Shown: one piece after another, positions 8,819 to 12,901 of the stretch | How the letters are laid out: every line of letters starts with the position of its first letter | How positions within the stretch are numbered: the first letter of the stretch is position 1 | From: Sordaria brevicollis | Taxonomy: Eukaryota > Ascomycota > Sordariomycetes > Sordariales > Sordariaceae | Direction: 5' to 3' | Assembly (NCBI GenBank): GCA_033439795.1 | Contig: JAUTDP010000005.1 | Coordinates: 1,765,001-1,829,000, forward strand | Length of the DNA: 64,000 nucleotides | The notes under the pieces: model-generated | Seen by the model: the letters and a program-made list of their open reading frames with translations, nothing else | Told to the model about the DNA's origin: nothing | Databases searched by the model: none | Program-made: the position numbers and the translations under genes

Positions 8819-11800
8819 TCAAGCAATCCCAGTCCCCCACCTCTCCACCCCAAACGGCATCGCCCCCTCCAGCGCCGCGGCTTCCAAATGAATATCCTTA
8901 AAATCATGTTCCAAATCCTCTACCCCTTCATCATATATTCCATCATCGTTATCATCAATATCATTGTGTCGTCGTCTTACTGATTCTCTTCTTTCTGCCT
9001 CTGCCATACCCGAGGCGCCAACCGGGAGAGCCATAGCGACGGCCTGAGCTTGTTTCAACTCGCTGTATGCGGGTAGGTAATCTTCTTCTACTTGTTTCTG
9101 TAAGCGTCGAACGCTGGACTGGCGGCTGCCGGGCATGTGGTGGTTTGTGTTTTGGTCGATAGGGAAGTCGTCGTAGCCGGGGGTCCGATGCCGGCGAAGG
9201 CACTGCCTCTTGAAAATGTTCGGCTTAGTCCTGAACCGTAGTCCTGTTGTTGGTGGCCGATGTAGGTCCTTGCACTCGCGGCGCTGGTTTGTCTGCTTAT
9301 GCTTCCTCCTCCGTAGATATCATTGCTTCCGATTGTGCGCGTGCTAGCTTTGCTGGCTTGACGACTCACTCCGGGCGTGCGGTCGTCGTAGAATTGGGAT
9401 TGATAAATGACTGCGCCGGTGGGTCCAGGAAGCCTGATCTCATCTGCTTCCAAGATCTCGGCAATGTCCCGAATTAGAACGTCCATGGGGCAGATGTACG
9501 CTACTCGCTTCCTGCTTGACCAAGCGAGGACGTGGCCGCAGACACTACCGCTGTCGCGTTCCACTACCCAGGCGCCGGAATCACCGGGGATACCCATCGG
9601 CAGTGGCTGACGACGTGAGTTGATCGTGTGGTCTCCGGATCCGGAGGGTCGGTTAGGCCGGTTAGGCACCAAACCCAAGGAAGGAGTGCCAGAGACCTGG
9701 TAAGTGTGACTGGGCGAAGTCCGACCCAGTATCTTTACCGAGGTGAGGGCAGGAAGAATGGTTCCTGTCTGCAGGCCAGAGGTGCGGGCCATGCATTGCA
9801 CTTGAAGACCGGGAAGGGTGTTGGAGGGGGCGGTCGACGTCGGCATAATTGTCGGGATCTGGTCAAGAGGAAGGCTGGGAAGACGAGAATGCTTCTTTCC
9901 CTTCTTGCCCGATGGAAGGTTCGAAGCCTTCGGAATCCAGTTGTCGGATGGTTGACGATCGTCCTCGAACTCGAACAGTGCCCAATCAATTTCGTGCACA
10001 AGACCATTCTCCTTCCGCCGGCGAATACCACTGGACGCATACATCTCACCCACCCTGAATGTGTCGAGATGGTCTTGGTCTTTGTCATCAGCTGATGGGT
10101 AGAAATCGCTGGCCACGTCGTCCAGAGCCGGTTGTGTGATGATGAAGCCTTCACCGCAGCCGGGCTCAATGCCAGGGATGTCGCCGGGTTCGGTGAATTG
10201 CTCCTCTTCTTCGTAGTAGTCGTCGTCATCGGAAGCTTCGCTGGTTATGGCGGACTCGGAGTAGGCTTCGGAATCGGTGTCAGAAAATTCGCAGGCGTAG
10301 TCACCGTTCTCGCTGCTATCGGGGAGGATTCGTCGGTGTTGGAGTACTGTTGTGCATACCACGCTGCAAGATCGCCAAGTCCTCCGCCTGCCATACTTCT
10401 GGCATTATCATCGGCACCTTGCTCGTCGGGGTCATCCAACATGTGGTGCACCGTCATTCCATAGGACTTGTCGTCCACCACAATGAGTCCTCCCAGGCTG
10501 ACAGGCGGCAAGTGTCGATCGCCGATCCATGCACCAATACTCGCGCCATTCTGTGGCTTCGGCTGGTATGAGGGATTGGCGGCAATGATATCTTCAGAAT
10601 CCTCGGGGTTGGCCATGCTACGGTTGATGACCTGCTTTCGTGATCGGAGAACTTGACCCTTGCAAACCTTGAGTCCGATGTTCGACCGTGTTCCATCAAA
10701 CAGCATGCCTAGCTTCTTCTTAAGAATGGCCCTAACCTTGCTAACCGACGTGCAGACGACCAATACGGTAGGCTTGGTACGTTGTGGTGACTCGCCAATC
10801 GATTCGAGGGAAATCTCGACGGACTCAGGGTTCTTACGGTAGAACGTCTTGAGGGCGGAGTTGATCTCGGGCATGAGGACGGAGTTCCACTGTTCGACGA
10901 CATCAGGCGGTAAGGGTACTTGGGGGTAGAGGCGCGCTTTTTCCTTTGCTGAAGAGTCCTTGGCTTGGCGCGCTGTAACGTGTTAGATACCATCAAACAT
11001 CGGATGAAATGAGGCTCACTCTTACCTTGGATCTTGGCCCGTACTTCCGCTTCAGGATCGGCGGGCACACTCACAACCTCCGGTTCCTCAATTTTGTGGG
11101 CTACGGGAATTGGAGTTTCAACGACAGGCTTTTCAGATTCGGCCGCCTTCGAGGAGCCAGAACCTGAAGCAACTGGTTCTGAGGGTAGTGGCATAGCTGC
11201 CGGTGCAGGAGAAAGGTCGTCTCCCAGCCTCTCCTCCAAGTTGCTCACGCCATCCAGAATGCAGCATGCCTCCAGATAACGACTGGCCTTGAACTCAACA
11301 TGACGAGCAATCTCATCCATGGTATGCTGACCACCGATCTCCTGATCAACCGCCTTCAAACATGTCTCAACGGCCTTCCTGTAGAGCGTACCACATCGAA
11401 TAGCCAGTTGATCAAGAATAGCATGGGAAACGACTGGATTTTGAACATCCGGGAGGATGTTCTCCAGCTTATTCCACAAGCCAACAGAAACGAGGATCAT
11501 GGCCAAAGAGTAGAGATCCAAGGTCTTGGAATCAGCATTGTTGTTGAGAGGAGATTTGGAACTGTTCTTGGGGTCCAACGGATGTCTATAAGGCGTGAAA
11601 GGTTCGGGCTCGTCTTGTGATTGTGGCTCAGAGAACAAGTCAAACGACGAGACCAAAGGCCGTCTGATGTCAACCTCGCCTTGGCTCATTCCGCTGATTT
11701 CGGGATCTGTGCTGACGGCATTGCAGAAGGAGATGTTGTCAATAAGAAGGTTTCCATGAGTGACGCCCCTGGCATGGAGATCGAAGATGGTGTTGGCCAA

Positions 11801-12901
11801 GTTTGCGGCTAGACGAAACTTTGCCTCCAGCTTCGGCTCAAAGTCGGGACGAGCCAATAGGTCTGCCAATGAGCACATGCTGTACAATGGGTTTTGGGTA
11901 AGGTTTTCGTAGGTGACGGGATTGAAGGTCTTGGGAAACCTATAGACAAGACCGAACCGGGAGTTATCCATGTCCTCAAAGTATCCCAATAACCTGGGTA
12001 GGCCTGCCCAAGAAGAACTGGATGACCGCTGAGGATCAGCTTGAAGACCGGATGACAAGCGCTCGAACCGGGCCATCGGTGGCGCCATACCCGTGATGGA
12101 ATAAAGGGAATCGAAGGGCGCATATTCGAGAAGAAGAGGTCCATAAGGAATTTGAGCCCCAATTCGTTCCATCAGTTCAGCATAAGCCTGCTTGCCCATA
12201 AAGACAATCTCTCTTGACCCCTGCTCTTGGTTTCCAGCCTCGGTCATGGGTACGGCCTGCATCTCTCGGAGGTTCATGAGATCCTTGGGGTTGATCTGCT
12301 GTGGCGTCTGGATCCTGGTGGACTCAAATGGTCGGTAGTCCTCGGCAGGTGAAGCCACAGCTTTTTGGAGCCTCTCTCGAGCAGCCGATGAATGCTGGGC
12401 ATAGGATGATCTCGTCCTGGACAAGTCGTAGAGGGTGTCGATGGATGTCGTCAAGTCACGAATAAGGTCCTCGAACCGGTTCTTGTCCCACACCACCAAC
12501 CTGATCTTTTCGCCTCGCTTCGGTGGTTGATATGGCTCGTTGCTCTCGCCGGTCAACTGCTTGGAACTGTTCCATAATGGCTCGGCCTCGGCTAGAATGT
12601 CCTTGATGGTGGACATAATACTCCCAACGACTTCGCTAAGGCCGGCCTTGGATAGTGAAGAGTCGATGTAGACTTCGGCAGAGTGAGTAGGGTCGGACCA
12701 TTCCAGGCCCCAGCTGACAAGACGGTCCTTTTGGATCTTGAGCTTCCGGTGAAGGGACTTGATTTCGGGATCGGCTTCGGCATGTTGGACGGGTTCCTTG
12801 ACGAAGTCGGAAGATTTCTTGGTGTCATTGTATAACCTACTAAGTCGCCTGTTGAGAGACGTCCCCAGCTGGAAGCCGCCCATGGGGATTCCGGACGCCA
12901 T
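8819..12901 (-). CDS. HeLo-like + pseudokinase + trypsin-like protease protein, two apparent frameshifts
   Basis: Exon 1 runs 12901-11026; a clean 53-bp intron (11025-10973, gtaaga, CTAAC, acag) follows; exon 2 reaches a stop at 8819. Residues about 1-190 are helical and resemble the HeLo/prion-inhibition domain (KIQKDRLVSWGLEWSD). The next part is kinase-like with HGNLLIDN where active kinases have HRDLKPEN, and no DFG, so a pseudokinase. After about residue 770 comes a chymotrypsin-fold domain: His in MTVHHML, Asp in DWALFEF, Ser in GIPGDSGAWV. The tail is Ser-rich and acidic. The reading frame changes twice, at the four-C run (plus 10321-10324) and the five-C run (plus 9179-9183), both inside obviously coding sequence. 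One extra C at each would give about 1343 residues. A 47-nt intron (10359-10313) could explain the first but not the second. Assembly error, natural frameshift and early decay all remain possible. Confidence 0.8.

Follow-up and report, generated by a model that had tools for sequence, protein, structure and literature searches.

Gene layout and conservation of three domains in one chain

The window analyzed here is a stretch of 64,000 nucleotides from Sordaria brevicollis (contig JAUTDP010000005.1, positions 1,765,001 to 1,829,000), which carries on its reverse strand a gene that joins a HeLo helical bundle, a dead kinase fold, and a serine protease with an invariant catalytic triad in one chain. 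The gene is broadly conserved, its HeLo part lacks the hydrophobic helix with which other HeLo domains begin, and its product may be a protease gated by the two domains that precede it. The gene has the following features, all on the minus strand.

8819..12901, minus: whole gene, ATG to TGA, the same as the annotated P0001 once the introns called for P0001 are applied
11026..12901, minus: exon 1, with the HeLo part, the pseudokinase and a linker
12812..12847, minus: short charged N-terminal helix, residues 19-30 in the exon 1 model, where other HeLo domains have a hydrophobic first helix
12374..12775, minus: HeLo helical bundle (PF14479), residues 43-176, with helices 45-68, 80-85, 89-116 and 140-168 in the exon 1 model
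11237..12310, minus: pseudokinase fold, residues 198-555
11735..11761, minus: THGNLLIDN, replacing the HRDxxxxN catalytic loop
11630..11650, minus: SSFDLFS at the DFG place
10973..11025, minus: intron of 53 nucleotides, GTAAGA..ACAG, used in P0001
10599..10940, minus: alpha/beta segment ahead of the barrels, residues 637-750, inside the range of the structural match to NAL1
10443..10598, minus: initial portion of the chymotrypsin fold, including TVHH (His codons 10443-10448)
10207..10442, minus: acidic insert between His and Asp, poorly conserved, holding the first frame change
9421..10206, minus: remainder of the protease, with the Asp of DWALF (9985-9987) and the Ser of GDSGAW (9577-9579)
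8819..9420, minus: C-terminal tail, poorly conserved, holding the second frame change

Of 7986 candidates scored in a search with the full-length protein, 566 were hits at E ≤ 0.001. The best 120 of these 566 are 1097-1439 amino acids (aa) long, with 54-98% identity over the aligned stretch; this range leaves out P0008 and P0033, whose pairwise alignments either failed or spanned 3%. The 120 include sequences from Neurospora, Podospora, Chaetomium relatives, Hypoxylon and other Xylariales, Diaporthe, Colletotrichum, and Fusarium, with a family member in Neurospora crassa. All family counts below come from these best 120 relatives, and the reach of the family outside the Sordariomycetes is sketched only by P0332, P0325 and P0341, described below. 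The N-terminal motif is found in 118 of the 120 (all except P0006 and P0075) and GDSGAW in every one.

The annotated protein P0001 (B0T20DRAFT_478526, 1236 aa) equals the window translation letter for letter when its annotated introns are used. Its model bridges the first of two frame changes with a called intron of 50 nucleotides (10396-10347) and ends early, at 9088, past the second. Both frame changes lie in runs of C, at about 10316-10325 and about 9178-9198, and at both sites P0002 and P0005 carry the residues encoded by one frame next to those encoded by the other. Introns were considered as the cause and rejected: candidate GT..AG stretches are present at the first site, but relatives have coding residues there, and none is listed at the second. 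The sequence fits sequencing errors and real changes alike. Mean pairwise identity is 0.46 in the acidic insert and 0.28 in the C-terminal tail, each of which holds one frame change, and the catalytic residues therefore lie outside the affected stretches.

The frame changes could also reflect a gene model that has merged two or three adjacent genes, and some shorter named models among the relatives point the same way: P0214 (614 aa) covers the HeLo side without the protease motifs, and P0299, P0306 and P0332 (598-683 aa) cover the protease side without the HeLo motif. P0332 is from Rhynchosporium, which we take to be a leotiomycete. These four could represent split or truncated gene models. 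Against a merger stand the lengths of the best 120 full-length relatives across many genera and the near-universal presence of both end motifs, which make this artefact very improbable. Searches with the parts gave mostly pieces. The best 120 of 246 hits on the HeLo side are 448-1086 aa long, 103 of them no longer than 760 aa, with GDSGAW in four; the best 120 of 232 on the protease side are 425-813 aa, 117 of them within 760 aa, with the HeLo N-terminal motif in none. The length limits of the full-length search would hide short separate genes, and those of the part searches favour pieces. Many pieces start or stop near the intron and resemble gene calls made exon by exon, and the open frames of P0325 and P0341 have the kinase C-lobe ahead of the protease. 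The original prediction had placed all three parts in one polypeptide, as they are in the 120 relatives listed; separate genes for the parts were not shown among the orthologues, where a few shorter named models exist.

Properties of the three parts

The PF14479 profile matches exon 1 with 35.4 bits, above its curated cut-off of 23.2, and four relatives with 25.5-33.2 bits; all 38 relatives sampled match at E ≤ 0.05. In the best stretches shown, the match to the profile begins at position 32 or 147-148 of 205, although a weaker N-terminal stretch could exist, since the best stretch alone was printed (a second was counted for exon 1). The exon 1 model (76 sequences, mean predicted local distance difference test score, pLDDT, 75.3) contains the five helices given above, the first being the short charged one; in the P0022 model residues 1-42 fall below pLDDT 50. 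The strongly conserved RRLSRLYND near the N-terminus (12824-12850) is a short helix in one model and poorly modelled in the other. An R-R-x-S motif within the first 45 residues occurs in 110 of the 120 relatives; it matches the consensus for PKA and other basophilic kinases, which is a lead only.

The conserved segment RRLSRLYNDTKKSSDF aligns with the hydrophobic first helix of the HeLo parts of four proteins, L001-L004. A hydrophobic, membrane-entering N-terminal helix of the HET-S type was not found in the family by hydropathy and alignment with four controls; the segment is charged and hydrophilic. The best 19-residue hydropathy within the first 40 residues averages -0.18 (range -0.99 to 0.68) in 117 of the 120 relatives, three having failed the motif filter, and is 1.71, 1.52, 1.09 and 0.69 in the four other HeLo proteins. 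The segment is also amphipathic, with a mean hydrophobic moment of 0.51 and a net charge of +4 over 119 sequences. HET-S attacks the membrane through an N-terminal transmembrane helix, according to the passages available from PMC10197012, and the HeLo domain of this family, to judge from its sequence, is therefore a poor candidate for membrane killing by that mechanism.

These properties bear on whether the protein is an executioner like MLKL or HET-S, whose HeLo bundle would attack the membrane and would either be set free by the protease or set it free, as the original prediction had proposed. The HeLo profile scores above cut-off in exon 1 and four relatives, the bundle is followed by a dead kinase in the order of MLKL, and a matching Podospora gene is induced in incompatibility. 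The reading also keeps some ground because the charged N-terminal segment is amphipathic and could bind membranes. The HeLo profile stretches shown that begin at position 32 or later, and the non-hydrophobic aligned helix in all 117 relatives scored, argue against it, and strong single-copy conservation would be unlike a variable killer gene. We consider an executioner unlikely. The part of the original prediction that made the HeLo domain a killer freed by proteolysis is not supported, given where the profile stretches begin and the charged, hydrophilic segment in place of a membrane helix; its broader link to cell death keeps the support of the Podospora gene.

The second part has a kinase fold, recovered in the comparison of predicted structures, without the residues of an active kinase: the HRD Asp is kept in three of the 120 relatives and the DFG place holds SSFDLF-like forms. 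The DUF7580 profile (PF24476) scores 16.5 bits on exon 1, below its curated cut-off of 27. In the third part, His, Asp and Ser stand in chymotrypsin order in all 120 relatives and the model has a double-barrel fold, so that the protease is probably active, a reading from the conserved residues. Its best fold match is plant NAL1, over a range that also covers the segment before the barrels, with 14-17% identity in the structural alignments. An NCBIfam search with three relatives gave nothing credible for the protease, and the plasmid collection gave no match. The protease part is single-copy in its own genome (53 Mb, 27 contigs) at E ≤ 0.01. The HeLo-like N-terminus, sought in residues 1-190, the pseudokinase, and the chymotrypsin-fold domain of the original prediction were all borne out.

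A candidate gated protease

The protease residues are intact, the kinase is dead and the killing helix is absent; the protease is therefore likely the output of the protein, and the other parts its switch and anchor. We favour, with a probability of roughly 0.48, an intracellular, conserved, signal-gated serine protease. In this mechanism the HeLo bundle would bring or hold the molecule together through contact with a membrane or partner, the dead kinase fold would sense an upstream signal and act as an allosteric switch, in the manner of the MLKL pseudokinase, and the C-terminal protease of NAL1-like fold would cut a protein substrate in reaction to stress or non-self, perhaps in the course of incompatibility cell death. 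More tentatively, fungi may have re-used the MLKL layout, with a HeLo domain that lost its killing helix and a pseudokinase that now controls the NAL1-type protease fused to it, as a conserved core of the non-self or cell-death response.

Expression in Podospora anserina provides a hint of such a role. Passages from PMC3689799 count Pa_7_4390 (1236 aa) among the HeLo genes, with no associated domain and a maximal 2.58-fold change in incompatibility; it is matched to the family solely by the number and length that it shares with P0062 (P. pseudoanserina QC764_704390, 1236 aa). In the same passages, 2231 genes rise at least twofold and seven of the nine HeLo genes are up, and the induction of the matching gene is for this reason suggestive, not specific. 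Three other Podospora HeLo proteins there have a "Pkc-like" associated domain, one of them at 0.42-fold.

The strongest rival to a signal-gated protease is a constitutive or developmental regulatory protease with no role in death, which might, for example, degrade a corepressor as NAL1 does, with the HeLo and kinase folds targeting it or docking substrate. The NAL1 fold and the broad conservation agree with this, as does the degradation of TOPLESS-type corepressors by maize and rice NAL1 proteins, described in passages of PMC12915138. HeLo domains are tied to incompatibility in their other settings, and the induced HeLo set contains the matching Podospora gene, which lowers the standing of this alternative; we think it somewhat doubtful, although less so than an executioner.

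Several points weigh against the gated protease. Strong conservation and a single copy suit a housekeeping role equally well, and a 2.58-fold change is modest among the 2231 raised genes of PMC3689799, as far as its available passages go. The tie to NAL1 is by fold, as no sequence match to NAL1, nor any other credible one for the protease, was obtained in the PDB with profiles of 38, 4 or 63 rows. The protease drew no trypsin-type or other credible Pfam match. The relative placement of the domains is poorly fixed in the P0022 model (predicted template modelling score 0.49). The hydropathy comparison has four control proteins, the start Met of three of which was chosen by the analyst, and one of them (0.69) almost reaches the family range. 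The window copy itself carries two frame changes.

Other frames near the gene are as follows.

2195-3856, plus: HET-domain (heterokaryon incompatibility) frame, PF06985 with 106.2 bits, at a distance of some 5 kb from the gene
4687-5550, minus: PIP5K-like frame
6612-7406 and 7410-7808, plus: two frames with one cofilin domain each, presumably twinfilin

HET genes are common in such fungi, and we claim no cluster of the HET frame and its neighbours with the gene. Farther along the window, two similar kinase-like frames (FDRERLFWH, HPHILRPLL), 40733-41986 and 47830-48999, are separated by some 6 kb, have opposite orientations and look like diverged duplicates; a weaker kinase-like frame, 37212-38000, is below the Pfam cut-off. 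Another HeLo frame of the same genome (L001) runs into a GKAGSGKSTMM stretch that we take to be a P-loop, and L001 is therefore probably an NLR-type HeLo protein.

Comparison with known systems

The protein looks like a protease version of the cell-death protein MLKL of animals and plants, which likewise has a helical bundle at its N-terminus and, after it, a kinase fold that lacks the catalytic residues. The fungal protein differs in its additional C-terminal serine protease and in its short, charged N-terminal helix, and nothing seen points to an activator of the RIPK3 kind. Passages of PMC12881547 describe an MLKL pseudokinase that gates the killing bundle; in the proposed mechanism the gate would act on the protease instead. 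No MLKL match was found in the PDB by sequence at E ≤ 1. MLKL is also missing from the fold matches shown, but kinase chains filled those rows and the bundle was barely tested, so that its absence from the fold matches is no evidence against a relation to MLKL.

Within the same genome, L002 and L003 have the MLKL-like order of a HeLo domain followed by a kinase-like domain. Like our protein they have a HeLo domain, and their kinase-like domain is homologous to its own (identity 36% and 31%, E 2.9e-8 and 4.6e-8); their open frames, as far as seen (642 and 831 aa), hold no protease, and their N-terminal helix is more hydrophobic. Against the DUF7580 cut-off of 27 bits, L002 passes with 44 and L003 falls below with 19.6. 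The "Pkc-like" HeLo proteins of Podospora likewise combine HeLo and kinase-like domains, and HELL domains occur in proteins with kinase or pseudokinase domains in the passages of PMC12881547. The bundle and pseudokinase of the original prediction are present in the models, whereas the layout itself, in the parts seen of PMC12881547 and PMC3689799, is not new to fungi. Its fusion to a protease appears to be new: no description of a HeLo-pseudokinase-trypsin-like fusion or of a fungal NAL1-like fold was found in the titles, abstracts and passages searched, which cover subscription journals thinly, and the portions available of PMC9815663, PMC1325252 and PMC11647526 hold nothing on the fusion.

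The pore-forming HET-S and HELLP effectors of the HeLo and HELL type share the HeLo family domain, but the present protein is large, carries an enzyme domain, and lacks their hydrophobic N-terminal membrane helix. Fungal protease-gasdermin pairs also tie a protease to the control of cell death; they consist of separate clustered genes in the passages of PMC12881547, while here HeLo and protease form one chain. Plant NARROW LEAF 1 (NAL1/SPIKE) resembles the C-terminal part, including the segment before the barrels, but with low structural identity, and the listed NAL1 chains have no aligned HeLo or kinase part. The fold match suggests that fungi have a relative, by fold, of a protease important for crop yield and described as plant-specific in passages of a 2026 paper (PMC12915138); if a gated NAL1-type protease is indeed present, such proteases would not be confined to plants. 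A conserved protein of Neurospora crassa, with a match in Podospora, that has an MLKL-like switch and a protease in one chain would offer a direct setting for testing pseudokinase control of a protease and the relation of necroptosis-like to protease-driven death.
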